NCBI GenBank assembly: GCA_019510125.1
Contig: JAEKKX010000022.1
Span: 40,223 to 104,222, forward strand
Length of the DNA stretch: 64,000 nucleotides
DNA from: Lysobacterales bacterium
GTDB taxonomy: Bacteria > Pseudomonadota > Gammaproteobacteria > Xanthomonadales > Xanthomonadaceae
Direction: 5' to 3'
In this document: in pieces, positions 11,895-25,358 of the stretch
How the letters are laid out: the number at the start of each line of letters is the position of its first letter
How positions within the stretch are numbered: position 1 is the first letter of the stretch
The notes under the pieces: generated by a model
The model's input: only the letters and a program-made list of their open reading frames with translations
The model's database searches: none
Told to the model about the DNA's origin: nothing
Made by a program: the position numbers and the translations under genes

Positions 11895-14006
11895 GTGAAC
11901 GCTCGTCCTTCCGCTTCCCCCAACCCCCGCCTGCTCCTGCTCTCCGCCGCCGTCGCCGTCGCCGTCGCGGGGGTCGCCCTGGTGGGCGCCGATGCCGCGT
12001 TCGCCGCGAAGCCCGCCCGTGCGGCCGCGCCGACGCTCGACCAGAGCAAGCTGCCGCCGTTCAACCAGTTCAAGGCCACCGACATCGACGCCTCGAAGAA
12101 CGTCTGCAACAACCTCGGGGACTACGTCAACGGCAAGTGGCTGGCCACGAATGCGATCCCCGGCGATCGCACGTCCTGGGGCGCCTTCGAGATGCTCGCC
12201 GAGCGCTCGCTGGCGGTGCAGCACCAGTTGGCCGAACGCGCCGCCGCCGATCCGAAGGCGACCGGCGTCGAGAAGCTGGTCGGCGATTTCTGGGCCACCG
12301 GCATGGACGAGAAGGCGATCGAAGCCCAGGGCATCAAGCCGCTGAACAGCCGCCTGGCCGAGATCGACGGCCTCACCGATGGCGCCTCGGTCGCCCAGTA
12401 CCTGCGCGACACCGCCGCCCGCGGCGAGAACGTCCTGTTCAGCTTCGGCCCGAGCCCGGACTTCAAGGACTCCAACGTCAACATCGCCTACGCCTTCCAG
12501 GGCGGCCTCGGCCTGCCCGACAAGGCCTACTACTTCGACGCCGACAAGAAGGACAAGCTCGAGGCCTACCAGCAGCACGTCGCGAAGGTGCTGGCGCTGT
12601 CGGGCATCCCGGCCGCCGACGCCGCCAGGCAGGCGAAGGACGTGATCGCGTTCGAGACCCGCCTCGCCGGGGTGTCCAAGTCCAGCGAGGAGCTCTCGCG
12701 CGACATGGCGCTGTCCTACAACCCGGTGACCCCGGCCCAGGCCGACGCGCTCGCGCCGAACTTCCCGTGGACGAAGTTCTTCGAATCGCAGGACGTCGCG
12801 GTGCCGAAGATGTTCTCGCTGGCGATCCCCGCCTTCCACCAGGAAGTCAGCAAGATGCTGGGCGATACCCCGGTCGCGGCGTGGAAGAGCTACCTGCGCT
12901 TCCACACCGTGGACGGCGCCTCGCCGTTCCTCAGCGCGGCCTTCGTCCAGGAGAACTTCGACTTCTACAGCCGTGCCATGCGCGGCCAGAAGGAAATGAA
13001 GCCGCGCTGGAAGCGCGTGCTCGGCACGATCGAGGGCGAAGCCGGCGAAGCGCTGGGCCAGCTCTACGTGAAGGCGGCGTTCCCGGCCGAGTCCAAGGTG
13101 CGGATGGAGCAGCTCGTGCAGAACCTGCGCGACGCGCTCAAGCTGCGCATCGAGCAGTTGACCTGGATGAGCCCCGAGACCAAGCAGAAGGCGCTGCAGA
13201 AGTGGGCCGCGTTCACGCCCAAGATCGGCTACCCCGACAAGTGGCGCGACTTCTCCGGGCTCAAGACCTCGCGCAGCAGCTACGTCGACAACATCCTTGC
13301 CGGCAACGCGTTCAACTACCGCTACGAGCTGGCCAAGATCGGCAAGCCGGTCGACAAGACCGAATGGGGCATGAGCCCGCAGACGGTCAACGCCTACTAC
13401 AACCCGCAGCAGAACGAGATCGTGTTCCCGGCGGCGATCCTGCAGCCGCCGTTCTTCGACCCGAAGGCCGACGATCCGGTCAACTACGGCGGCATCGGCA
13501 CGGTCATCGGCCACGAAATGATCCACGGCTACGACGACCAGGGCAGCCGCTTCGGGCCCACCGGCAACTTCGAGAACTGGTGGACCGACGCCGACGCCAA
13601 GGGTTTCGAGGCGCTCACCGACAAGCTGATCGCGCAGTTCGACGGCTATGAGGCCGCGCCGGGCAAGCACGTCAACGGCAAGCTGACGCTGGGCGAGAAC
13701 ATCGCCGATCTCGGCGGCATCAACGTCGCCTACGACGCGATGCGCCACGCCACCGCCGGCAAGCCCGACCCGATGATCGACGGCATGACCCGCGACCAGC
13801 GCTTCTTCCTGAACTTCGGCACCATCTGGCGCCGCAACTTCACCCCGAAGGAGCTCGAAGTCCGGCTGGTGACCGACCCGCACGCCCCGGCCAACTTCCG
13901 CGCCATCGGCGCCCCGTCGAACATGCCGGCGTTCGCCAACGCGTTCCAGTGCAAGGCCGGCGACGCCATGGTCCGCGACGGCGACAAGCGCATCCAGATC
14001 TGGTGA
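11895..14006 (+). CDS. M13 family (neprilysin/PepO-like) zinc metallopeptidase, secreted
   Basis: 703 residues, GTG start. A signal peptide covers residues ~1-38, ending in AAFAA. The N-terminal M13 domain begins with CNNLGDYVNGKW. The catalytic domain carries HEMIH at 540-544 and ENIAD at 601-605, supplying all three zinc ligands plus the catalytic Glu and the structural Asp. It ends in the family-typical Cys and Trp (CKAGDAM, then a terminal IQIW). M13 enzymes cleave peptides shorter than about 40 residues in the periplasm or outside the cell. A second M13-like gene at 23325 has lost these residues. Two hairpins follow this gene. Confidence 0.93.
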   Translation: MNARPSASPNPRLLLLSAAVAVAVAGVALVGADAAFAAKPARAAAPTLDQSKLPPFNQFKATDIDASKNVCNNLGDYVNGKWLATNAIPGDRTSWGAFEMLAERSLAVQHQLAERAAADPKATGVEKLVGDFWATGMDEKAIEAQGIKPLNSRLAEIDGLTDGASVAQYLRDTAARGENVLFSFGPSPDFKDSNVNIAYAFQGGLGLPDKAYYFDADKKDKLEAYQQHVAKVLALSGIPAADAARQAKDVIAFETRLAGVSKSSEELSRDMALSYNPVTPAQADALAPNFPWTKFFESQDVAVPKMFSLAIPAFHQEVSKMLGDTPVAAWKSYLRFHTVDGASPFLSAAFVQENFDFYSRAMRGQKEMKPRWKRVLGTIEGEAGEALGQLYVKAAFPAESKVRMEQLVQNLRDALKLRIEQLTWMSPETKQKALQKWAAFTPKIGYPDKWRDFSGLKTSRSSYVDNILAGNAFNYRYELAKIGKPVDKTEWGMSPQTVNAYYNPQQNEIVFPAAILQPPFFDPKADDPVNYGGIGTVIGHEMIHGYDDQGSRFGPTGNFENWWTDADAKGFEALTDKLIAQFDGYEAAPGKHVNGKLTLGENIADLGGINVAYDAMRHATAGKPDPMIDGMTRDQRFFLNFGTIWRRNFTPKELEVRLVTDPHAPANFRAIGAPSNMPAFANAFQCKAGDAMVRDGDKRIQIW

Positions 14007-14083: not shown

Positions 14084-14095
14084 CGTCGTTGCGGA

Positions 14096-14124
14096 TGCAT
14101 CCGTCGCCGCGCCGGCGCCGTATC
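14096..14124 (+). promoter_or_regulatory. Predicted ECF sigma-dependent promoter of the sigma gene
   Basis: TGCATCC at 14096-14102, a 16-nt spacer, then CGTATC at 14119-14124. The identical two boxes with the identical spacer precede the desaturase operon at 15721. This is what an autoregulated ECF sigma factor would show. The -35 box sits inside the palindrome CGGATGCATCCG. Confidence 0.7.
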
Positions 14125-14287
14125 CCCCGGCGTGGACATCGTGACGACCGCCCCCTTTCCCCCGCCGCCCCCGCCGCCCCCGCGGACGCCTGCGCGCCGC
14201 GCAGGCGCGGGCGCGCACTCCTCGGCCGCACCGCTTGCGGTCGTGCATCTTGCGATGGGTCCGCGCGAGCCCTTGTCGCGGCGGACG

Positions 14288-14902
14288 ATGTCGCTGAACA
14301 TGACGGCCCCGCCCCCCACCCGGACACCCCGGATGTTCGAGTCCGCACCGCCGCCGCAGGACGCCGATCGCCTCGACGCACTGCTGCTGTCCGTCGCCGA
14401 GGGCGACCGCACGGCGTTCGAGTCGCTCTACCGCGCAGCCTCGTCGCGCCTGTTCGGCATCTGCCTGCGTCTGCTGCAGGATCGCGCCGAAGCCGAGGAC
14501 GTGCTCCAGGAGGTCTTCGTCGCGATCTGGAACAAGGCGCACCAGTTCGACCCGGGTCGCGCCGGCGCGGCGGCGTGGCTGGCGACGATCGCCCGCAATC
14601 GCGCGGTGGATCGCCTGCGCGCGCTGCCGGCGCGCGGCGCGCTGGCCCCGATCGACGTCGCCGAGGACGTCGTCGACGGCGGCGCCTCGCCGCTGCAGAC
14701 CGCCACCGCGGCCGACGATCGCGCGCGGCTGGAGGCGTGCATGGAGCAGCTCGAACCGCGCCGCCGCAGCCTGATCCGCGCCGCGTTCTTCGACGGTTCC
14801 ACCTACGAGGAGCTGGCCGAACGCATCGCTTCGCCGCTGGGCTCGGTCAAGAGCTGGATCCGCCGCGGCCTGCTTCAACTGCGCGGGTGCCTGGACGCAT
14901 GA
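14288..14902 (+). CDS. ECF-type RNA polymerase sigma factor
   Basis: 204 residues from the ATG at 14288; ATGs at 14254, 14300 and 14333 are alternatives because no start has a strong ribosome-binding site. Region 2 (FESLYRAASSRLFGICLRLL, then AEDVLQEVFVAIW) and region 4 (EPRRRSLIRAAFFDG, TYEELAERI, GSVKSWIRRGLLQLR) match the SigK-like ECF group. The stop overlaps the anti-sigma start (ATGA). Its own predicted promoter shares both boxes with the lipid operon downstream, so it probably directs its own synthesis and that operon. The inducing signal is unknown; gammaproteobacterial relatives of the cluster respond to singlet oxygen or membrane stress. Confidence 0.88.
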   Translation: MSLNMTAPPPTRTPRMFESAPPPQDADRLDALLLSVAEGDRTAFESLYRAASSRLFGICLRLLQDRAEAEDVLQEVFVAIWNKAHQFDPGRAGAAAWLATIARNRAVDRLRALPARGALAPIDVAEDVVDGGASPLQTATAADDRARLEACMEQLEPRRRSLIRAAFFDGSTYEELAERIASPLGSVKSWIRRGLLQLRGCLDA

Positions 14903-15696
14903 ACATCCGCGACCTTCACGACCAGGATTTCGAGGGCCGCGACCCGCCCTCCGCCGATCTGCTCGCCGGCGAGTACGTGCTCGGCGTGCTCGACGCCGAC
15001 CAGCGCCGCGCGGTCGCCGCGCGCATCGAACGCGACCCCGGCTTCGCCCGGCTGGTCGCCGAGTGGGAACGCCGGCTCGCGCCGCTGCTGGCGGACTGGC
15101 CCGCGGCCGAGGTTCCCGCGCACGTCTGGCCGCGGATCCGCACCCGGCTGGGCTGGGCCGCCGCCGGCGACCCCGCGCGCACCAAGCCGGGGCTGTGGCA
15201 GAACGCGGGCGTCTGGCGCACGGTCGCCGGGTTGGCCGCGGCCGCGGCGATCGCCGCGATCGTGATCGGCCCGCCGGGGCTGTTCCGACCGACCGACACC
15301 GGCCCCGGACCGGGACCGGTCGCGGTCACGCCGCCGCCGGTCGAAGACCCGAACGCACCGAAGCCGGTCACCACCCTCGCCCACGACGACGGTTCGCCGG
15401 GCTGGCTGGCCTCGATCGACACCCGCGCCGGCACCGTGCTGATGGTGCCGGTGCCCGCGGCGGCGGATGCGCAGGGTCGCGAGCCGGAACTGTGGCTGAT
15501 CCCGCCGGGCGGCAAGGCCGAATCGCTGGGCATCGTCTCGATCAACCGCTCGCACACGGTCAAGGTGCCCGACGCCCTGCGCGCCGGCCTGTCGAAGGGC
15601 GCGCTGCTCGCGATCACCCTCGAGCCCAAGGGCGGCGCGCCGCACGGCGTCGCCACCGGGCCGATCATCGCCAAGGGCGAAGTCGTCCTGCTCTGA
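14899..15696 (+). CDS. RskA-like membrane anti-sigma factor
   Basis: 265 residues. The N-terminal helical anti-sigma domain (LLAGEYVLGVLDADQRR) has no HxxxCxxC zinc motif, so it is not a ChrR/ZAS type. One membrane segment lies at ~residues 114-132 (TVAGLAAAAAIAAIVIG). The periplasmic part, ~residues 150-265, is an RskA C-terminal domain (LWLIPPGGKAESLGIV, then VTLEPxGG-like). Such proteins hold their sigma factor at the membrane until regulated proteolysis releases it. Translationally coupled to the sigma gene by ATGA overlap. Confidence 0.87.
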   Translation: MNIRDLHDQDFEGRDPPSADLLAGEYVLGVLDADQRRAVAARIERDPGFARLVAEWERRLAPLLADWPAAEVPAHVWPRIRTRLGWAAAGDPARTKPGLWQNAGVWRTVAGLAAAAAIAAIVIGPPGLFRPTDTGPGPGPVAVTPPPVEDPNAPKPVTTLAHDDGSPGWLASIDTRAGTVLMVPVPAAADAQGREPELWLIPPGGKAESLGIVSINRSHTVKVPDALRAGLSKGALLAITLEPKGGAPHGVATGPIIAKGEVVLL

Positions 15697-15703
15697 CCTC
15701 GCG

Positions 15704-15729
15704 CCGGATGCATCGAACGGTGCATCCGG
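15704..15729. promoter_or_regulatory. Inverted repeat overlapping the ECF -35 box
   Basis: A perfect repeat CCGGATGCA, 8 nt, TGCATCCGG lies just after the anti-sigma stop. Its right arm contains the TGCATCC -35 box. It could terminate sigma/anti-sigma transcription, bind a regulator, or both. Confidence 0.45.
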
Positions 15730-15749
15730 ATCGCCGCGGCCCGCGTATC
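15721..15749 (+). promoter_or_regulatory. Predicted ECF sigma-dependent promoter of the lipid-modification operon
   Basis: TGCATCC at 15721-15727, 16 nt, CGTATC at 15744-15749, matching the sigma-gene promoter exactly in both boxes and spacing. Transcription would start near 15756, 20 nt before the ATG, leaving room for the GAGGAGA ribosome-binding site. Confidence 0.72.
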
Positions 15750-15775: not shown

Positions 15776-16738
15776 ATGCCGTCGTCCCCTGCCCCACGTG
15801 CGGCCCCATTGCAGACCCGGCTGCGCGCCGCCCTGCGGCGCTGGTTCGACACCGCCGCGGACGTCGCCGACGACGCCGGTGGCGATCGCGACGGCATCGA
15901 CTGGCTGCGCGCGGCGCCGTTCCTGGGCCTGCACCTGGCCTGTCTCGGGGTGTTCGCGGTCGGCGTCTCGCCGGTGGCGATCGCCACCGCGCTGGCGCTG
16001 TACGCGATCCGGATGTTCGCGATCACCGGCTTCTACCACCGCTATTTCTCGCACCGCACGTTCCGCACCTCGCGCGCGGTGCAGTTCGCGTTCGCGCTGA
16101 TTGGCGCCTCCTGCGTGCAGCGCGGCCCGCTGTGGTGGGCGGCGCACCACCGCAACCACCACCGCCACGCCGACACCGAGCGCGACGTGCATTCGCCGAA
16201 GGTCCACGGTTTCTGGCGCAGCCACGTCGGCTGGTTCCTGACCGGCGAGGGGTTCCGCACCGACTTCGACCGGGTCCGCGACCTCGCCCGCTACCCCGAA
16301 CTGCGCTGGCTGGACCGCTTCGACATCCTCGTCCCGGTGCTGCTGGCGGTGGCGCTGTTCGCGACCGGCGCCTGGCTCGAACGCGCCGCGCCCGAGCTGG
16401 GCACCGACGCCTGGCAGATGCTGGTCTGGGGCTTCTTCGTCTCCACCGTGGCGCTGTTCCACGCCACCGTCACCATCAATTCGCTGGCCCACCGCTTCGG
16501 CCGCCGCCGCTTCCCGACCCGCGACGACAGCCGCAACAACTGGTGGCTGGCGCTGCTGACCTTCGGCGAGGGCTGGCACAACAACCACCACTTCTTCCCC
16601 GGCTCCGCCCGCCAGGGGTTCCGCTGGTGGGAGATCGACCTGACCTACTACGGCCTGCGCGCGCTGGCGCTGGTCGGGCTGGTCCGCGACCTGCGGCCGG
16701 TGCCGGCCTGGGTGGCGGCGCGCGCGGAGGTCCGCTGA
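15776..16738 (+). CDS. Membrane fatty acyl desaturase (delta-9 acyl-CoA/acyl-lipid type)
   Basis: 320 residues. The three histidine boxes of the di-iron desaturase fold are intact: HRYFSH (88-93), HHRNHH (124-129) and HNNHH (268-272), with at least four hydrophobic segments between them. The enzyme would insert a double bond in acyl chains at the inner membrane, supplying the unsaturated substrate that cyclopropane-synthase-like enzymes methylate. It is the first gene of the cluster, directly behind the predicted ECF promoter, with GAGGAGA before the ATG. The stop overlaps the next start (TGATG). Confidence 0.88.
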   Translation: MPSSPAPRAAPLQTRLRAALRRWFDTAADVADDAGGDRDGIDWLRAAPFLGLHLACLGVFAVGVSPVAIATALALYAIRMFAITGFYHRYFSHRTFRTSRAVQFAFALIGASCVQRGPLWWAAHHRNHHRHADTERDVHSPKVHGFWRSHVGWFLTGEGFRTDFDRVRDLARYPELRWLDRFDILVPVLLAVALFATGAWLERAAPELGTDAWQMLVWGFFVSTVALFHATVTINSLAHRFGRRRFPTRDDSRNNWWLALLTFGEGWHNNHHFFPGSARQGFRWWEIDLTYYGLRALALVGLVRDLRPVPAWVAARAEVR

Positions 16739-18030
16739 TGCGCATCGCGATCGTCGGTTCCGGCATCGCCGGCCTCGCCTCCGCCTGGCTGCTCTCGCGC
16801 GGCCACGAGGTGGTGCTGTTCGAGGCGGACGACCGCCTCGGCGGCCACACCCACACCCACGACATCGACCTGCACGGCCGCCGTTACGCCGTGGACACCG
16901 GCTTCATCGTCCACAACCCCGCCCACTACCCGCTGCTGACCGCCCTGTTCGACGAACTCGGCGTCGCCTCGCAGCCGACCACGATGAGCTTCTCGGTCCG
17001 CAACGAGGCCAGCGGGCTGGAATACAACGCGACCACGCTCGCCACGCTGTTCTGCCAGCGCCGCAACCTGGTCTCGCCGCGTTTCTGGGGCATGCTCCGC
17101 GACCTGACCCGGTTCTATCGCGAGGCCCCGGCGCTGCTGGACGCGCCCGGCCCGGGGCCGACCCTCGGCGAGTACCTCGACGCCGGCGGCTACGGCGCGG
17201 CGTTCCGCGACGACCACCTGGTGCCGATGGCCTCGGCGCTGTGGTCGTCGCCGGCGTCGCGGATCCTCGCCTTTCCCGCGCAATACCTGGTGCGGTTCAT
17301 GGCCAACCACCAGATGCTGCAGGTGAACGATCGTCCGCAGTGGCGGGTGGTGCGCGGCGGGTCGCGCACCTACGTGCGCGCGCTCGAGGCGCGCTGGCGG
17401 GTGCAGGCGCGGGTCGCGAGCCGGGTGCGCATGCTGCTGCGCGATGCCGACGGCGTCACCGTGTTCACCGACGACGGCGCCGAGCGCTTCGACCAGGTCG
17501 TCCTCGCCTGCCACAGCGACCAGGCGCTGCGCCTGCTCAGCGACGCCAGCGACACCGAGACCGCGATCCTCGGCGCGATCCCCTACCAGGCCAACGACAC
17601 CGTGCTGCACACCGACGCCCGGCTGCTGCCGCGCCGGCGCAAGGCGTGGGCGGCGTGGAACGCGCTGGTGCCGCGCGACCCCACCGACGCCTGCACGGTC
17701 AGCTACTGCATGAACCTGCTGCAGGGCCTCGACGCACCGGAGCCGCTGGTGGTCACGCTCAACGGCGCCGACGCGATCGACCCCGACCGGGTCCTGCGCC
17801 GGATGCGCTACCACCATCCGGTCTACAGCCACGCGTCGGTCGCCGCGCAGGCGCGCAAGGCCGAGATCCAGGGCCGCCGCCGCACCTGGTTCGCCGGCGC
17901 GTACTGGGGCTGGGGCTTCCACGAGGACGGCATGCGCAGCGCGGTCGAGGTGGCGACCGCGCTCGGCGTGCGCTGGCCGGCGGCGCAGGCCGCCGCCGCG
18001 ACGCCCGAGGCCGCGCCGGTGCCGGCATGA
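16738..18030 (+). CDS. FAD/NAD(P)-binding amine-oxidase-like oxidoreductase
   Basis: 430 residues. The Rossmann dinucleotide motif GSGIAG (7-12) is followed by VVLFEADDRLGGH, typical of the flavin amine oxidase/phytoene desaturase fold. The C-terminal FAD-contact region reads FAGAYWGWGFHEDG. Homologues sit beside DUF1365 and cyclopropane-synthase-like genes in many proteobacterial ECF-linked clusters, and a flavin desaturase of this general type takes part in methylated furan fatty acid synthesis in Rhodobacter. Here it may oxidise a methylated acyl chain; that is inference. It overlaps genes on both sides. Confidence 0.83.
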   Translation: MRIAIVGSGIAGLASAWLLSRGHEVVLFEADDRLGGHTHTHDIDLHGRRYAVDTGFIVHNPAHYPLLTALFDELGVASQPTTMSFSVRNEASGLEYNATTLATLFCQRRNLVSPRFWGMLRDLTRFYREAPALLDAPGPGPTLGEYLDAGGYGAAFRDDHLVPMASALWSSPASRILAFPAQYLVRFMANHQMLQVNDRPQWRVVRGGSRTYVRALEARWRVQARVASRVRMLLRDADGVTVFTDDGAERFDQVVLACHSDQALRLLSDASDTETAILGAIPYQANDTVLHTDARLLPRRRKAWAAWNALVPRDPTDACTVSYCMNLLQGLDAPEPLVVTLNGADAIDPDRVLRRMRYHHPVYSHASVAAQARKAEIQGRRRTWFAGAYWGWGFHEDGMRSAVEVATALGVRWPAAQAAAATPEAAPVPA

Positions 18031-18812
18031 GCGCCGCGCTCGCCAGCGCGATCTACGAAGGCGGCGTGCGCCATCGCCGCCATGCGCCGCGCGCGCACGC
18101 GTTCCGCTATCGCATGGCCCAGCTCTACCTCGACCTGGACGAACTCGACCGGGTCTTCGACGGCCGGCCGCTGTGGTCGGTCGATCGCCGCAACCTCGCC
18201 GAATTCCGGCGCAGCGACTACCTCGGCGATCCCGATGTGCCGCTGGCCGAGGCGGTGCGCGAACGCGTGGCGACGGCGCTCGGCCGCAGGCCGCAGGGCC
18301 CGATCCGGCTGCTGACCCATCCGCGCTACTTCGGCTACGTGTTCAACCCGGTCAGCTTCTACTACTGCCACGCCGCCGACGGCGAACGCCTGGACTGCAT
18401 CGTCGCCGAGATCACCAACACGCCGTGGAAGGAGCGCCACGCCTACGTGCTGCCGGTCGAGGCCGCGGAGCGGCGCGGCCGCGCGCTGGGCTGGTCGTTC
18501 GCCAAGCGCTTCCACGTGTCGCCGTTCCTGCCGATGGCCCGCGACTACGCGTGGCGCTTCACCGTGCCCGGCGACGACCTCCGCGTCCACATGGACGTGC
18601 TGCGCGACGGCGACCGCGAATTCGACGCGACCCTGCACCTGCAACGCCGCCCGCTGGACGCCGCGTCGCTGCGCCGCCTGCTGTGGCGCCATCCGCTGAT
18701 GACCGCGCAGGTGATCGGCGCCATCCACTGGCAGGCGCTGCGGCTGTGGCTCAAGCGCACGCCGGTCCACGACCATCCCACCCGCGCCCTGTCCCTCCGA
18801 GGTTCCCGATGA
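18027..18812 (+). CDS. DUF1365 family protein
   Basis: 261 residues. Family blocks are clear: an N-terminal VRHRRHAPRAHAFRY, then LLTHPRYFGYVFNPVSFYYC, EITNTPWKERHAYVL and FHVSPFLPM. The biochemical role is unknown, though the family nearly always sits between a flavin oxidoreductase and a cyclopropane-synthase-like methyltransferase, as here, suggesting work on the same lipid. ATGA overlaps on both sides indicate translational coupling. Probably membrane-associated, with no clear transmembrane span. Confidence 0.85.
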   Translation: MSAALASAIYEGGVRHRRHAPRAHAFRYRMAQLYLDLDELDRVFDGRPLWSVDRRNLAEFRRSDYLGDPDVPLAEAVRERVATALGRRPQGPIRLLTHPRYFGYVFNPVSFYYCHAADGERLDCIVAEITNTPWKERHAYVLPVEAAERRGRALGWSFAKRFHVSPFLPMARDYAWRFTVPGDDLRVHMDVLRDGDREFDATLHLQRRPLDAASLRRLLWRHPLMTAQVIGAIHWQALRLWLKRTPVHDHPTRALSLRGSR

Positions 18813-20110
18813 CCGAACTCATCCCCCGCGTCGACACCGCCCGCGCCGCCCGGGCCGCGGACTACGGTGCGCTCGACCGCTTCCTGCGCGCCCGGCTGAT
18901 CGCGCAGCTCGCCGGCCTGCGCCACGGCCGCGTGCTGCTGCGCGACGCGTTCGGCACGACGCCGATCGGCGCCGCAGACCGCGACGACGACCTCGTGGTG
19001 CGGCTGGAAGTGCTCGATCCCGGCTTCTACCGCGCGATCGCCGGCAACGGCAGCGTCGGCGCCGGCGAGGCCTACATCGACGGCCTCTGGCGCTGCGACG
19101 ACCTGGTCGGCCTCGTCCGCCTGCTGGTGCGCAACCGCGACCTGCTCGACGGCATGGAAACCGGCCTCGCCCGCCTCGGCGGCGTCGCGATGCGCGCCTG
19201 GCACGCGCTGCGCCGCAACACCCGCGACGGCAGCCGCCGCAACATCGCCGCGCACTACGACCTCGGCAACGACTTCTTCTCCACGTTCCTGTCGCCGGAC
19301 CTGATGTATTCGTCGGGCATCTGGGCCGGCGACGGGGACGACCTCGACACCGCCTCGACCCGCAAGCTCGACCGCATCTGCCGCAAGCTCGACCTCGGGC
19401 CCGGCGACCGCGTGGTCGAGATCGGCACCGGCTGGGGCGGCTTCGCCGTGCATGCGGCGACCCACTACGGCTGCCACGTCACCACCACCACCATCTCGAA
19501 GGAACAGCACGCCCTCGCCGCGCAGCGGGTGGCCGACGCCGGCCTGCAGGATCGCGTGACCCTGCTGCTGCAGGACTACCGCGACCTGCAGGGCAGCTAC
19601 GACAAGCTGGTCTCGATCGAGATGATCGAGGCGATCGGCGCCGAGTACATGGAGACCTATTTCGCCAAGCTCTCCGCGCTGCTGAAGCCCGACGGCCTCG
19701 GTCTGGTCCAGGCGATCACGATCGAGGACCACCGTTACGAACAGGCGCTGCGCTCGGTCGACTTCATCAAGCGCCACGTCTTCCCCGGCAGCTTCATCCC
19801 GTCGATCGCGGCGATGCTCGCGGCCAAGACCCGCGCCAGCGATCTCGCGCTGATCCAGCTCGAGGACTTCGGGCTGTCCTACGCGCGCACGCTGGCGGCC
19901 TGGCGCGAACGCTTCATGGCCGCGCTGCCGCAGGTGCGGGCGCTGGGCCACGACGAACGCTTCATCCGCCTGTGGGAGTTCTACCTCGCCTACTGCGAAG
20001 GCGGTTTCCGCGAGCGCTCGATCGGCGTGGCGCAACTGCTGCTGGCCCGGCCCGGCCACCGCGCGCCGGCGCCGATGCCCGAGCTCCCGCGCGAGGCGCT
20101 GCAGGCATGA
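18809..20110 (+). CDS. cfa: Cyclopropane-fatty-acyl-phospholipid synthase-like methyltransferase 1
   Basis: 433 residues. The N-terminal ~130 residues form the lipid-binding part (AYIDGLWRCDDLVGLVRLL). The SAM-binding motif EIGTGWGG is at 204-211, preceded by AHYDLGNDFFSTFL, which is highly conserved in the family, and followed by the SIEMIEAIG segment. Full length for a CFA synthase. It would transfer a methyl or methylene group from SAM to the double bond of a phospholipid acyl chain. A second, shorter relative lies four genes on, so the operon probably does more than simple cyclopropanation. Confidence 0.88.
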   Translation: MTELIPRVDTARAARAADYGALDRFLRARLIAQLAGLRHGRVLLRDAFGTTPIGAADRDDDLVVRLEVLDPGFYRAIAGNGSVGAGEAYIDGLWRCDDLVGLVRLLVRNRDLLDGMETGLARLGGVAMRAWHALRRNTRDGSRRNIAAHYDLGNDFFSTFLSPDLMYSSGIWAGDGDDLDTASTRKLDRICRKLDLGPGDRVVEIGTGWGGFAVHAATHYGCHVTTTTISKEQHALAAQRVADAGLQDRVTLLLQDYRDLQGSYDKLVSIEMIEAIGAEYMETYFAKLSALLKPDGLGLVQAITIEDHRYEQALRSVDFIKRHVFPGSFIPSIAAMLAAKTRASDLALIQLEDFGLSYARTLAAWRERFMAALPQVRALGHDERFIRLWEFYLAYCEGGFRERSIGVAQLLLARPGHRAPAPMPELPREALQA

Positions 20111-20688
20111 GCCGCCGGACGATCCTGCTCAACGCCGTCGCCTACCAGTCGGTCTGGTTCGCGACCGTGATCGGCGCCGGCCGCGGTCTGTGGTGGCCCG
20201 GCCCGCTCGCCGCGCTGGCGTTCCTGGCGCTGCACCTGGGCGCGATCGTCCGCGACCGCGGCGAGCGGCGGCGCGAACTGGCGCTGGTCGCCGCGGCGGT
20301 CGCCTGCGGGCTGGTCATCGACGGCGTGCTGTCGGCTTCCGGCGCGATCGTCTTCACCCCCGCCGCGCCCGCGCTGCCGGCCGGCGGCGCGCCGCTGTGG
20401 ATGCTGACGCTCTGGGGCGCGTTCGCGTTGACCCTGCGCCATTCGCTGCGCGCGCTGACCGCGCGACCGCTGCTGGCCGCGCTGGTCGGCGCGATCGGCG
20501 GGCCGCTGGCCTACCTCGGCGCCGCCCGCGCAACCGGCGTGCTGGCCTTCCCCGATCCGCGCGCGATGACCCTGGCGATGCTCGCCGCGGGCTGGTGCCT
20601 CGCGCTGGGGCTGCTGGCGCTGCTGGCCTCGCGCCACGCCGGCGCCTCGCCGCCTGCGCGCGCGACCCTGGCCGGAGGCGCCGCATGA
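20107..20688 (+). CDS. DUF2878 family integral membrane protein
   Basis: 193 residues with five or six hydrophobic segments spread over the length and few charged residues. The N-terminus (LLNAVAYQSVWFATVIGAG) is the family signature. DUF2878 proteins occur in the same ECF/CFA neighbourhoods in other gammaproteobacteria; function unknown. It overlaps the preceding and following genes by 4 bp, so its stoichiometry is likely tied to them. Confidence 0.78.
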   Translation: MSRRTILLNAVAYQSVWFATVIGAGRGLWWPGPLAALAFLALHLGAIVRDRGERRRELALVAAAVACGLVIDGVLSASGAIVFTPAAPALPAGGAPLWMLTLWGAFALTLRHSLRALTARPLLAALVGAIGGPLAYLGAARATGVLAFPDPRAMTLAMLAAGWCLALGLLALLASRHAGASPPARATLAGGAA

Positions 20689-21494
20689 GCCTCTGGTCCT
20701 CGCTCGCCCTGGTCTGGGCCCTCGCCGCGGCGATGATGACGCTCGGCTGGTGGTGGCAGAAGCGCCGCGACAACGCCGGCATCGTCGACGTGCTGTGGTC
20801 GTTCGGCGTCGGCGGCAGCGCGGTGCTGCTGTGCGCGCTGGGCGACGGCGCCGCGCTGCCGCGGCTGGTCGGCGGTGCGCTCGGCGGCCTCTGGGGCCTG
20901 CGCCTGGCGCTGCACCTGTGGCATCGCGTCCGCGCCGAGCCCGAGGACGGCCGCTACCGCCACCTGCGCACCCACTGGAACGGCAACCAACTGTACTTCT
21001 GGCTGTTCTTCCAGTTCCAGGCGCTGCTGATCGTGCTGTTCGCGCTGCCGTTCGCGGCGGTCGCGGCCAACCCGCAGGCGTCGCCGGCCTGGGCGGCGGT
21101 GGCGGTCGCGATCTGGCTGCTCGGCGCCGGCGGCGAGGCGCTGGCCGACGCGCAGTTGGCGCGGCATCGCGCCGACCCGGCGAACAAGGGCCGGACGATG
21201 CGCAGCGGGCTGTGGCGCTACTCGCGGCACCCGAACTACTTCTTCGAGTGGACCCAGTGGTTCGCCTACGTCGCGCTCGCGGTCGGTTCGCCGCGCTTCG
21301 CGCTGGCCTGCGCCGGGCCGGTGGTGATGTTCGCGTTCCTGCGCTGGATCAGCGGCATCCCGTTCACCGAGCAGCAGGCGCTGCGCAGCCGGGGCGAGGA
21401 CTACCGCGATTACCAGCGGACCACGCCGATGCTGTTCCCCTGGTTCCCCAAACCCTCCCCTTCCCCCGCCCACTCCGAAGGAGCCGAGCGATGA
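20685..21494 (+). CDS. DUF1295 family membrane protein (steroid 5-alpha reductase-like fold)
   Basis: 269 residues, about six membrane segments. The C-terminal third has the family signature GLWRYSRHPNYFFEWTQWF, followed by PFTEQQALRSRGEDYRDYQR, which resembles the NADPH-binding end of isoprenylcysteine methyltransferase and steroid reductase folds. Members may reduce or modify lipid double bonds, but no activity is assigned. Within the operon it could act on an intermediate made by the desaturase and methyltransferases (inference). ATGA overlaps at both ends. Confidence 0.83.
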   Translation: MSLWSSLALVWALAAAMMTLGWWWQKRRDNAGIVDVLWSFGVGGSAVLLCALGDGAALPRLVGGALGGLWGLRLALHLWHRVRAEPEDGRYRHLRTHWNGNQLYFWLFFQFQALLIVLFALPFAAVAANPQASPAWAAVAVAIWLLGAGGEALADAQLARHRADPANKGRTMRSGLWRYSRHPNYFFEWTQWFAYVALAVGSPRFALACAGPVVMFAFLRWISGIPFTEQQALRSRGEDYRDYQRTTPMLFPWFPKPSPSPAHSEGAER

Positions 21495-22591
21495 CCTCGA
21501 CGCCCACGACGCACCCGACCGCCGCCCTGCCCCACGAACTGGCGACCGATCGTCCCGGCCCCGGCCTGATCGGCCTCGCCGAACGCGGGCTGCTGCCCGA
21601 CGCGCTGCTGCGCCACGGCATCCGGCGCCAGTGCGCGGATCGCCTGCGCGCCGAATCCGCCGGCGGCCCGGAGGCGCAGGCCGAGCGTTTCCGCGCCCGC
21701 ATCGAGGCGCTGCGCGCGAGCCCGCTCGCGATCCACACCGACGCCGCCAACGCCCAGCACTACGAGCTGCCGCCGGCGTTCTTCCGCGAATGCCTGGGCC
21801 CGCGGCTGAAGTATTCCTGCGCCTACTACCCGCGCGGCGACGAGACCCTGGCCCAGGCCGAGGAGGCGATGCTGGCGCTCTACGGCGAGCGCGCGCAGCT
21901 CGCCGACGGCCAGCGCATCCTCGAACTCGGCTGCGGCTGGGGCTCGCTGACGCTGTGGATGGCCGAACACCTTCCCAACGCGCGCATCACCGCGGTGTCG
22001 AATTCGCGGCCGCAGCGCGAGCACATCCTGGCGCAGTGCCGGGCGCGCGGCTTCGGCAACGTCGAGGTGATCACCTGCGACGTCAATCGCCTGCAGTTGC
22101 CGGCGGCGGCGTTCGACCGCTGCGTGTCGATCGAGATGTTCGAGCACATGCGCAACTACGAGACCCTGCTGGGCAACATCGCCGGCTGGCTCGCGCCGGG
22201 CGGGCGCCTGTTCGTGCACATCTTCGCCCACCGCACCCTGATGTACCCGTTCGAGACCGAGGGCGAGGACAACTGGATGGGCCGGCATTTCTTCACCGGC
22301 GGGCTGATGCCGGCCGCGGACACCCTGCCGTGGTTCCAGCGCGACCTGCGGATCGAGCAGCGCTGGCTGGTGGACGGCACCCACTACGAGAAGACCGCCA
22401 ACCACTGGCTGCAGAACCAGGACGCGCGACGCGACGCGGTGATGGCCGTGCTGCGCGAGGCCTACGGCGACCTCGCGCCGCTGTGGTTCCAGCGCTGGCG
22501 GATGTTCTGGATGGCCTGCGCCGAACTCTTCGGCTACGCCGGCGGCCGCGAATGGCTGGTCGCGCACTACCGCTTCGCCCGCCCCGATTGA
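21491..22591 (+). CDS. Cyclopropane-synthase-like SAM methyltransferase 2 (short form)
   Basis: 366 residues. It lacks most of the N-terminal lipid-binding region of the first methyltransferase. It retains HYELPPAFFRECLGPRLKYSC, slightly altered from the canonical HYDLGNDFF, and the SAM motif ELGCGWG at 145-151, then SIEMFEHMRNY. The sequence diverges enough from methyltransferase 1 that a different acyl position or substrate is likely. It starts over the stop of the DUF1295 gene (ATGA). Confidence 0.82.
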   Translation: MTSTPTTHPTAALPHELATDRPGPGLIGLAERGLLPDALLRHGIRRQCADRLRAESAGGPEAQAERFRARIEALRASPLAIHTDAANAQHYELPPAFFRECLGPRLKYSCAYYPRGDETLAQAEEAMLALYGERAQLADGQRILELGCGWGSLTLWMAEHLPNARITAVSNSRPQREHILAQCRARGFGNVEVITCDVNRLQLPAAAFDRCVSIEMFEHMRNYETLLGNIAGWLAPGGRLFVHIFAHRTLMYPFETEGEDNWMGRHFFTGGLMPAADTLPWFQRDLRIEQRWLVDGTHYEKTANHWLQNQDARRDAVMAVLREAYGDLAPLWFQRWRMFWMACAELFGYAGGREWLVAHYRFARPD

Positions 22592-22617
22592 CCCCCGCCA
22601 TGTCCCGGAGACCGACC

Positions 22618-23157
22618 ATGCTCAAGTTGCTCGCGCTGCTCGTCCTGATGGGAGCGGGCGGCGTCTACGCGCTCGGCCGCGAGAAACCACCGACGATTCC
22701 CACCGCCGCCCCGGTCGACCTGCCGCGCTTCATGGGCGACTGGTACGTGATCGCCAACATCCCGACCTTCATCGAGAAGGACGCCTACGACGCGGTCGAG
22801 TCCTACGCGCTGCGCGACGACGGCAAGGTCCAGACCACCTACCGCCAGCGTCGCGGCGGCTTCGACAAGCCGCTGAAGACCATGCACCCGGTCGGCACCG
22901 TGCGCCCCGGCACCGGCAATGCGGTGTGGGGGATGCAGTTCGTCTGGCCGATCAAGGCCGAATACGTGATCGCGTACGTGGACGCCGACTACAGCCGCAC
23001 GATCGTGGCCCGCAGCGATCGCGACTACGCCTGGATCATGGCGCGCACGCCGACCCTGCCCGACGAGGACTACGCGGCGCTGGTGGCGCGCCTGGCCGCG
23101 CTGGGCTACGACACCTCGAAGCTGCGCAAGGTCCCGCAGCAGGCGACCGCGCCTTGA
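22618..23157 (+). CDS. blc: Bacterial lipocalin (Blc-like)
   Basis: 179 residues. ATG at 22618 is preferred over 22600 because GGAG precedes it and the signal segment then starts the protein (MLKLLALLVLMGAGGVYALG). No lipobox Cys is visible, so it may be anchored by this segment or secreted. The lipocalin signature GDWYVIAN begins at residue 40, and the second motif, near DYAWIMAR, is present. Lipocalins bind and carry lipids or lysophospholipids in the periplasm. It is the last gene of the cluster and probably handles its products. Confidence 0.86.
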   Translation: MLKLLALLVLMGAGGVYALGREKPPTIPTAAPVDLPRFMGDWYVIANIPTFIEKDAYDAVESYALRDDGKVQTTYRQRRGGFDKPLKTMHPVGTVRPGTGNAVWGMQFVWPIKAEYVIAYVDADYSRTIVARSDRDYAWIMARTPTLPDEDYAALVARLAALGYDTSKLRKVPQQATAP

Positions 23158-23324: not shown

Positions 23325-25358
23325 ATGTCGAACCCGAACGGCTTCTCCCTGCTGCGCCCCACCGCCCTCGCCCTCTGCCTGACCCTCGCCGTCGCCACGC
23401 CGCAGGCCGACGCCGCCAAGAAGCGCAGGCCGGCCGCGACCGGTCCCAAGGCCCCGGCGGCGCCCAGCGCCTGCACCGACCTCTACGCGTACGCCAACGC
23501 GGACTGGCTGAAGGCCAATCCGGTCCCCGCCGACGGCGCGGTCAGCGCCCTCGGCGCACTGGCCGAGCGCAGCGTGCAGCAGCAGCGCGACCTGCTCGAC
23601 GGCGCGATGACCTCGCCCCAGAACGGCGTCCAGAAGCTGCTCGGCGACTTCTGGGCCAGCGGCCTGGACGAAGCGGCGGTCGAGCGCGACGGCGCCGGCC
23701 CGATCGCGCCGCTGCTGGCGCGCATCGGCGCGATCAAGAAGTCGCAGGACGTGGCGCCCGCGATCGCGGCGCTGCACCAGGTCGGCATCCCGGTGGCCTT
23801 CAATTTCACCGCCGACATCGACCTGCGCAACCTCGTCACCTACTTCGGCTATTTCGCCCAGGGCGGCCTCGGCCTGCCCGACCCCAGTTTCTACACCCGC
23901 ACCGATCCCGACGCGCGCGCGCTGCTCGGCCGCTACAACGGCTACGTGCAGAAGATCCTGGTGCTCGCCGGCACCCCGCAGGACAAGGCGGCCGCCGAGG
24001 CGCAACTGGTCATCGACCTCGAAACGCGCATCGCCCGCGCCTCCAAGACCCGCGAGGAGCTGCGCAGCATCAAGGCCACCTACAACCCGGTGCCGACCAA
24101 GGATTTCGCCAAGAAATACCGCAACCTGCAGCTCGCCGCCTTCCTCAAGGTCCAGGGCGTGGGCGCCGAACAGGTGTCGATGGCCGATCCCGCGCTGTTC
24201 GCGCAACTGGACAAGCTGGTCACCAGCCTCAAGCCGGCCGAATGGCAGGCCTACCTGCGCTTCCAGGTCGGCAACGCCATGGCCGCCTACCTGAGCAAGT
24301 CCTGGCGCGACGTCGAATTCGACTTCCGCGGCCGGCTGCTGCGCGGCGACCTCGAGCAGGCGCCGCGCTGGCGCCAGGTGCTGGACGCGATCAACACCTC
24401 CGCCGGCGACATGCTCGCCCACGAATACGTCGCGCGCTACCTGCCCGACGCCACCCGCGAGCGCGCCGAGGCCATCGCCCGCGACGTCAAGCTCGCGCTG
24501 GGCGAGGCGATCTACCGCAACACCTGGATGGACGACGCCACCAAGCAGGAAGCGCGCAACAAGGTCGACCGGGTCAAGATCCAGATCGGCGCGCCGAGCA
24601 ACATCCTCGACTTCAGCCTGCAGCCGATGGGCCGCGGCAGCTTCGGCAGCAACATCCTGATCGCGTCCACCTGGCACCACCGCGAGGAAATGAAGCGGAT
24701 CGGCCGCGCCAGCGCCGAGCGCCGCTGGGACGTGCTGCCGCAGTCGCCGGCGATCAGCTACGACATCGCCCACAACCGGCTGTTCGTGACCGCCGCGCTG
24801 CTGCAGCCGCCGGTGCTGGACATGAAGGAATCCGCCGCCGGGCAGTACGGCGCCTTCGGCGCGGTGGTCGGCTACGAGCTGACCTCGGCGGTCGACAACC
24901 GCGGCCGCCTGGTCGACGCTAGCGAGGCGCTGCGCGACTGGTGGTCGGCCGACACCGCCGCCGGCTGGCAGACCCGGACCGCATCGCTGGCGTCGTACTA
25001 CGGCAAGCTCCCCTACCCGGGCAATCCGGCGACGAAGGTCGACGGCGCGCGCACGCTCGCCGGCAACATCGGCGACCTCTCCGGCTTCGAACTGGCCTGG
25101 GCCGCGTACGCCAAGGCCGAACCGCAGGCGAAGGCCGCGGACCAGCAGGCCTTCTTCCGCGGCTGGGCCCGGCTGTGGGCGCAGCAGGTCGCGCCCGCCG
25201 CGGCCGCCGCGATGGCCGCCACCTCGCCCTATGCGCCGGGCCCGTGGCGCGCGAACGCACCGGCGATGCAGTCGCCGGCCTTCGGCCCCGCGTTCGGCTG
25301 CAAGGCCGGCAACCCGATGCTGGCGCCGGAGAGCGAGCGCCTGTCGATCTGGCGCTGA
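23325..25358 (+). CDS. M13-family pseudopeptidase, zinc ligands lost
   Basis: 677 residues with a signal peptide (~1-29, ending QADA). The sequence aligns with the M13 peptidase at 11895 throughout: CTDLYAYANADW, FWASGLDEAAVE, GGLGLPDPSFY and a C-terminal FGCKAGNPM. At the catalytic site the equivalent of HEMIH reads YELTS (517-521) and the equivalent of ENIAD reads GNIGD (580-584). All three zinc ligands are therefore gone, although the frame is intact and full-length. It is probably a secreted inactive homologue that binds peptides or regulates the active paralogue, kept by selection; a recent pseudogene would show frame damage. It ends 8 bp before the AAA+ gene. Confidence 0.87.
   Translation: MSNPNGFSLLRPTALALCLTLAVATPQADAAKKRRPAATGPKAPAAPSACTDLYAYANADWLKANPVPADGAVSALGALAERSVQQQRDLLDGAMTSPQNGVQKLLGDFWASGLDEAAVERDGAGPIAPLLARIGAIKKSQDVAPAIAALHQVGIPVAFNFTADIDLRNLVTYFGYFAQGGLGLPDPSFYTRTDPDARALLGRYNGYVQKILVLAGTPQDKAAAEAQLVIDLETRIARASKTREELRSIKATYNPVPTKDFAKKYRNLQLAAFLKVQGVGAEQVSMADPALFAQLDKLVTSLKPAEWQAYLRFQVGNAMAAYLSKSWRDVEFDFRGRLLRGDLEQAPRWRQVLDAINTSAGDMLAHEYVARYLPDATRERAEAIARDVKLALGEAIYRNTWMDDATKQEARNKVDRVKIQIGAPSNILDFSLQPMGRGSFGSNILIASTWHHREEMKRIGRASAERRWDVLPQSPAISYDIAHNRLFVTAALLQPPVLDMKESAAGQYGAFGAVVGYELTSAVDNRGRLVDASEALRDWWSADTAAGWQTRTASLASYYGKLPYPGNPATKVDGARTLAGNIGDLSGFELAWAAYAKAEPQAKAADQQAFFRGWARLWAQQVAPAAAAAMAATSPYAPGPWRANAPAMQSPAFGPAFGCKAGNPMLAPESERLSIWR

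Follow-up and report, generated by a model that had tools for sequence, protein, structure and literature searches.

An identical promoter sequence precedes a SigK-like sigma factor gene and a putative furan-fatty-acid-type lipid operon, beside which the sensor pair appears to have been exchanged

We analyzed a 64-kb stretch of DNA (hereafter, the window) from the 4.08-Mb genome of a Lysobacterales bacterium of the Xanthomonadaceae, in which the genes for an extracytoplasmic function (ECF) sigma factor and an RskA-type anti-sigma factor are followed, on the same strand, by an eight-gene lipid operon. The sequence TGCATCC-N16-CGTATC occurs exactly twice in the window: once upstream of the sigma gene and once in the 79-nt gap between the anti-sigma stop codon and the desaturase gene that leads the operon. 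An original prediction made from this DNA had proposed identical boxes at identical spacing before both, and the exact matches bear this out. The regulatory part of the locus comprises the following features.

14096–14124, plus strand: putative promoter 1, upstream of the sigma gene; -35 box TGCATCC (14096–14102), 16-nt spacer, -10 box CGTATC (14119–14124); exact match
14333–14902, plus strand: ECF sigma factor, SigK-like, 189 aa, with Cys44, Cys136, and Cys186; Pfam Sigma70_r2/r4; start conserved in five aligned loci, with a longer start at 14288 possible
14899–15696, plus strand: RskA-type anti-sigma factor, with a cytoplasmic part, a hydrophobic stretch at about residues 107–127 (a membrane helix, by eye), and RskA_C (PF10099, E 3e-18)
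15721–15749, plus strand: putative promoter 2, upstream of the lipid operon; -35 box TGCATCC (15721–15727), 16-nt spacer, -10 box CGTATC (15744–15749); exact match

Behind promoter 2 lie eight tightly packed genes (15776–23157), all members of the desaturase-led lipid cluster that had been predicted there.

15776–16738, plus strand: fatty acid desaturase, operon gene 1 (PF00487)
16738–18030, plus strand: flavin adenine dinucleotide (FAD)-dependent oxidoreductase, UfaD-like by place (PF01593)
18027–18812, plus strand: DUF1365 protein, UfaO family (PF07103)
18809–20110, plus strand: cyclopropane-synthase-type (CMAS) methyltransferase 1, UfaM-like (PF02353)
20107–20688, plus strand: DUF2878 protein (PF11086)
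20685–21494, plus strand: DUF1295 protein (PF06966)
21491–22591, plus strand: cyclopropane-synthase-type (CMAS) methyltransferase 2 (PF02353)
22600–23157, plus strand: lipocalin, last operon gene (PF08212)

The CMAS, FAD oxidoreductase, and DUF1365 genes stand in one run and were matched to UfaM, UfaD (which we take to be an FAD oxidoreductase), and UfaO by family and place, not to the Rhodobacter sphaeroides proteins directly. UfaO carries DUF1365, and UfaM, UfaD, and UfaO have been assigned roles in furan fatty acid formation (PMC7380195). On gene content, the operon looks like a furan-fatty-acid (ufa) operon, and its product is predicted on that basis.

The nearest solved relative of the sigma factor is SigK (4nqw, E 3e-34), followed by RpoE (2q1z, E 2e-22). 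Its Cys136 and Cys186, invariant among 33 aligned sequences, align with two cysteines of SigK 4nqw that lie 50 residues apart, the spacing of Cys133 and Cys183, a pair whose redox state influences SigK-RskA binding and which is kept in 94% of ECF18 sigma factors (PMC7509140). The anti-sigma gene overlaps the sigma gene (14899 versus 14902), and its product contains no cysteine and scores well above the cut-off for RskA_C (66.7 against 29.4 bits). Neither protein reaches its NCBIfam cut-off (161 of 226 bits for SigK, PRK09646; 86.8 of 100 for the anti-sigma factor, NF052375), and we therefore refer to the pair as SigK-RskA type, which corresponds to ECF18/ECF19, and to the sigma factor as SigK-like, rather than as SigK. 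A leaderless, N-terminally extended sigma factor was considered and rejected: an in-frame start codon lies exactly 9 nt past CGTA in the window (14132), in four same-genus loci (L037, L038, L039, and L040), and in L044, but the extension does not have the third-position excess of changes that the core shows, and 14333 is therefore taken as the start. The whole sigma-lipid block is flanked by two M13-like metallopeptidase genes (by eye; 11895–14006 and 23325–25358), the left one kept in L037–L041 and the right one matched in L037 and L038.

Under a dinucleotide model, 0.0009 exact copies of the promoter sequence would be expected in the window and 0.06 in the genome, which holds three exact N16 copies: the two window sites and one whose CGTA ends 34 nt upstream of an esterase-like gene. 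When up to three mismatches are allowed, the window gives 15 matches against 15.8 expected from shuffles, and all except the exact two carry two or three mismatches; hence, only the two exact copies stand out. Across a sample of 149 genomes of the family, the exact pattern occurs 56 times in 39 genomes, compared with once for the reversed pattern, and a counterpart of promoter 1 is present upstream of the sigma gene in same-genus loci.

The second site is also recovered without reference to the motif. A genome scan with the 33-sequence alignment yielded 306 relatives, of which the best 80 loci were kept, 42 of them carrying the desaturase. Searching 43 anti-sigma/desaturase gaps (window included) for every combination of a 6-mer, a spacer of 13–20 nt, and a 4-mer returned GCATCC-N16-CGTA as the top dyad, in 41 of the 43 gaps, which belong to related loci and so are not 43 independent cases; in 20 mononucleotide-shuffled sets, no dyad was common to more than four gaps. 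Three gaps do not contain the exact TGCATC-N17-CGTA: L061, with a spacer one base longer, L092 (TGAATCC), and L093 (CGCATCC). A site lies within 1.5 kb upstream of the sigma gene in 46 of the 80 loci overall and in 34 of the 42 that carry the operon. Some loci have a further gene in between: a homologue of the gene leading the ChrR-type operon of L135 (by place alone, the counterpart of Smlt2375) is found within 1.3 kb upstream of the sigma gene in 25 of the 80, with a site within 500 bp before it in 21 of these 25. Among the loci, L074 corresponds to the Stenotrophomonas arrangement in every gene; its record, which bears the title Bacillus subtilis SK7B5, is probably mislabelled or contaminated.

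The operon can also be compared across the family irrespective of its regulator. A search with the DUF1365 protein (E 1e-30) found it in 79 of the 149 genomes, from which 78 operon regions were taken (window included; G142, at a contig end, excluded); four had no desaturase or upstream DNA, leaving 74 operons. Upstream of these lies an RskA-type pair in 25 cases, an ECF11-ChrR pair in 17 (the ChrR query scoring above the TIGR02451 cut-off), and neither in 32. The 1.2 kb preceding the desaturase contain the exact TGCATC-N17-CGTA in 24 of 25 RskA-linked and 14 of 17 ChrR-linked operons, as opposed to 3 of 32 with neither pair beside them. The three remaining ChrR-linked operons are one base off, and with one TGCATC base tolerated in all classes alike, the counts within 400 bp of the desaturase become 25/25, 17/17, and 4/32. 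The 32 operons with no adjoining pair divide further, with a site in 0 of 25 from genomes with no pair anywhere and in 4 of 7 from genomes with an RskA-type or ChrR match elsewhere. Two of the 32 operons (from G010 and G093) share their contig with a ChrR match some 5 kb beyond the DUF1365 gene; one of them has CGCATC-N17-CGTA and the other no site. By eye, the upstream frames of 12 of the 32 include several neighbors, such as aminoketobutyrate ligase and pseudouridine synthase, and L150 has a response-regulator-like frame. Upstream of three lipid operons with no site (L125, L138, and L183) lies a further ECF-like frame with 27–29% identity to ECF11, perhaps another regulator.

Taken together, the conservation of the boxes beside RskA-linked operons, as against operons with neither pair, and the motif-free search support the original proposal of an autoregulated sigma factor in control of the lipid cluster. 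Judged from sequence, the SigK-like sigma factor probably reads both promoters and would thereby drive its own gene and the operon.

The same boxes occur in front of other genes. In the window's genome, the relaxed pattern TGCATC-N17-CGTA has 11 matches, with 2.7 expected and none for the reversed control. Plausible further targets are genes for an esterase-like protein (L199, just under the Pfam cut-off), a fasciclin (L208), a BLUF photoreceptor (L204), a radical SAM protein (L200), and a cupredoxin-like protein (L202, by eye). A match 9 nt before a dehydrogenase start (L205) is doubtful. At least three matches lie inside other coding frames, and those at L201, L203, and L209 were set aside as such; an N17 match within a glycine-cleavage-T-like frame (L002, named by eye) was dismissed as chance. 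The expectation of few other promoters, mostly of envelope or oxidative stress genes, fits in part: the 11 matches include the fasciclin, BLUF, and esterase-like genes, as well as the intragenic ones.

In 11 genomes of the genus, TGCATCC-N16-CGTA occurs 71 times and its reversed control once. Fasciclin orthologues are present in nine of these 11 genomes, and all nine have one or two sites within 163 nt upstream; that of the window's genome had been found through its site, such that the other eight constitute the test. There are eight weaker fasciclin matches (paralogues), and the three that were fetched have no site. Among 27 fetched sites of the 71, together with six from the window's genome, recurrent downstream genes include those for the cupredoxin-like protein (three genomes), BLUF, GTP-cyclohydrolase-like, and radical SAM proteins (two each), and two membrane proteins identified by eye, one as a cytochrome-oxidase subunit and one as DUF2177-like (two each). 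In 10 of the 80 loci, a fasciclin gene also falls in the interval from 2.5 kb before the sigma start to 3.5 kb beyond it. In nine of the 80 (L101, L103, L105, L106, L108, L109, L111, L113, and L116), with records titled mostly as sphingomonads and erythrobacters, fasciclin follows a SigK-like pair at no more than 2.3 kb from the start of the sigma gene, an arrangement like mpt83-sigK-rskA.

Further afield, a site precedes genes for small exported EGKCG-repeat proteins, which resemble copper-buffering peptides, in 5 of 29 family loci (L011, L017, L021, L023, and L027; at about position 1501), and another ECF sigma factor may share the boxes there. L030 and L031 have two divergent sites 1.1 kb apart (positions 1501 and 2623), one before a ferritin-like gene (PF13668, L030) and the other before an apparent further ECF sigma gene (by eye) with a Cupin_7 match nearby, so that a third pair may use the boxes.

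Several observations weigh against the reading that the SigK-like sigma factor drives both promoters. For 34 of the 80 loci, eight of which carry the operon, the 1.5 kb upstream of the sigma gene holds no site; some of the 34 are divergent relatives or run into a contig end. In three genomes (G010, G096, and G122), a ChrR or RskA-type match is present elsewhere, yet the desaturase lacks an upstream site when one mismatched base is allowed, which counts against a strict rule; control may have been lost at their operons (L120, L172, and L174, respectively). Finally, this sigma factor does not have the promoter to itself: ECF11-ChrR operons and the genes beside the apparent ECF/cupin pair of L030 and L031 carry the same boxes, and another sigma factor could contribute.

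The strongest rival takes this last point further, in that another ECF sigma factor of the same genome would mainly read the two promoters and the SigK-like one would control other genes. The ECF11 sigma factors of sister genomes do adjoin the same boxes, as do the genes beside the apparent ECF/cupin pair, and the EGKCG-repeat genes lie behind them as well. However, neither the window's genome nor five other genus genomes in that search contain a ChrR match at E 1e-10, and the window genome's one Cupin_7 match belongs to a 15-kb stretch where no sigma factor was matched and ChrR was matched only weakly (26% over 76 aa). The site, moreover, tracks the presence of RskA or ChrR and precedes both this sigma factor's own gene and a fasciclin gene, a hallmark of SigK. 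We consider this explanation unlikely. Less probable still is that the operon is transcribed mostly by read-through from the sigma promoter, with the second site a minor booster; co-directional genes and the short gap would allow it, but conservation of the second site is good (exact in 24 of 25 RskA-linked operons and present in 41 of 43 gaps) and extends to operons from which the ChrR pair points away (L132, L140, and L152).

Both -35 boxes in the window also overlap palindromes.

14092–14103, strand not assigned: 12-bp perfect palindrome CGGATGCATCCG, covering the first -35 box; judged incidental
15704–15729, strand not assigned: 9-bp inverted repeat CCGGATGCA-N8-TGCATCCGG (arms 15704–15712 and 15721–15729), overlapping the second -35 box; judged incidental

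That both boxes sit in palindromes, as first noticed, holds for the window; in relatives the inverted -35 box lacks conservation, occurring at 2 of 39 operon promoters and 0 of 46 sigma-gene sites. We give the least credence to the idea that the palindromes are repressor operators and the promoter-like match a by-product, which their presence at both boxes would suggest, since the inverted box, the kind of palindrome that the comparison covered, is rare, whereas the two boxes at fixed spacing are conserved. The palindromes look incidental and were rejected as operators.

With the SigK-like sigma factor retained as the probable regulator in the window, the ChrR-linked operons of sister genomes can be considered in turn. 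In a tree of four operon proteins (74 rows; the operon trees were built with a quick method and no bootstrap), the three regulator labels require 10 changes, where the minimum possible is two. For the 42 regulated rows only, RskA versus ChrR requires five changes, four of them forced by well-supported branches, and the approximately unbiased (AU) test rejects a single origin for the ChrR rows (p-AU 6e-8). RskA-type matches occur in 44 of the 149 genomes and ChrR matches in 21, with both in one compared with 6.2 expected; within the 79 DUF1365 genomes, one has both, 29 RskA only, 20 ChrR only, and 29 neither. The Fisher test of this mutual exclusion is uncorrected for kinship, and the tree count and AU test are the better evidence. 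It is likely that the sensor pair has been exchanged repeatedly at the operon while the promoter and the output stayed, and RskA-type and ECF11-ChrR pairs are apparently interchangeable at one promoter. The window sigma factor and the ECF11 sigma factor of L135 share 36% identity, and their last helices are close (PLGSVKSWIRRGLLQLRG versus PLGTVKSHLRRAFLRLQG), a similarity that, from sequence, would fit the shared -35 boxes.

We found no description of repeated exchange at one operon and one promoter in excerpts of the open-licence literature; a single exchange of a sensor pair is already in print for Rhodobacter capsulatus. There, a SigK-RskA-like pair (called rpoE-chrR) takes the place of sigmaE-ChrR and is induced by singlet oxygen. 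The case differs from ours in being a single one, in a genome with no RSP_1087-1091 homologues, and its authors leave remodelling versus horizontal transfer open and ask whether the pair was acquired (PMC7074977).

Of the characterized systems, ECF11 sigmaE-ChrR of R. sphaeroides and Stenotrophomonas maltophilia controls an operon of the same kind, and the ECF11-ChrR pairs of sister genomes have the same promoter boxes and spacing. In S. maltophilia the gene order, compared by annotation with hypothetical proteins aside, is the same behind one extra gene (PMC11832516). In strain KJ, deletion of chrR raises the nine-gene smlt2375-2367 operon 165- to 697-fold and sigma deletion reverses this, in one RNA-seq run (PMC11832516). 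The sensors themselves differ: ChrR combines a zinc site with a cupin domain (PMC6852236), and the window anti-sigma factor has RskA_C and no cysteine.

The mycobacterial SigK-RskA regulon (ufaA1 operon, fasciclins MPB70/MPB83) resembles the window system in its SigK-like sigma factor with the same cysteine pair, its RskA-type anti-sigma factor, a linked lipid operon with a cyclopropane-synthase-type enzyme, a fasciclin target, and a small regulon. SigK is autoregulated via Rv0449cp in M. tuberculosis (PMC10540498, PMC7509140), and the fasciclins and the ufaA1 locus are under SigK control in mycobacteria (PMC10540498). Unlike at the mycobacterial locus, in the window the sigma and anti-sigma genes lie before the operon and carry a promoter copy of their own, the operon includes a desaturase, a second methyltransferase, DUF2878, and a lipocalin, and the two regulators fall under the NCBIfam cut-offs. 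R. sphaeroides RpoE controls a fasciclin, folE2, photolyase, and RSP_1087-1091 (PMC7074977); set beside the mycobacterial SigK targets, this list indicates that the two sigma systems share outputs beyond this family. RpoT of Pseudomonas is likewise a proteobacterial ECF18 sigma factor with a linked anti-sigma gene. It differs in its link to toluene tolerance in P. putida, with no such effect in a P. syringae mutant, and a lipid operon is not described in the excerpted text (PMC3597554).

From these comparisons, a scheme for the window can be proposed. In unstressed cells, the RskA-type protein, anchored in the membrane, would keep the sigma factor bound, as expected from its family. Stress, in all likelihood oxidative and perhaps photo-oxidative, would release the sigma factor, which through the two promoters would activate its own gene, the anti-sigma gene, and the eight-gene operon. 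The resulting positive loop would raise sigma and anti-sigma factors together, and promoter 2 would yield furan-fatty-acid-type enzymes that modify unsaturated acyl chains. The nature of the signal is a guess, reasoned from the sensor exchange and the R. capsulatus case; for mycobacterial SigK-RskA, it is called 'still unknown' (PMC7509140) or said to 'remain obscure' (PMC9861118), and mpk83/mpk70 of M. kansasii, putative SigK targets, show mild light induction (PMC9861118). Against this guess, the S. maltophilia ChrR system is reported to serve superoxide tolerance and to have no part in singlet oxygen relief (PMC11832516).

More tentatively, SigK-RskA and sigmaE-ChrR may be interchangeable sensor cartridges on one ancient promoter with one membrane-repair output, a zinc/cupin sensor having repeatedly been replaced by a membrane-spanning one with the promoter untouched. 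We regard this as possible rather than probable, and the singlet oxygen result from S. maltophilia has slightly lowered our confidence in it. If it is true, SigK-RskA would answer to the same oxidative, perhaps photo-oxidative, stress as sigmaE-ChrR. In these soil and water bacteria, a SigK-RskA-type pair occupies, with promoter and operon unchanged, the position of a pair that answers to known stresses in other bacteria (singlet oxygen in R. sphaeroides, superoxide in S. maltophilia). The replacement amounts to a natural exchange experiment, offers a concrete guess for the SigK-RskA signal, and shows how a bacterium could alter what is sensed without rewiring its promoters.
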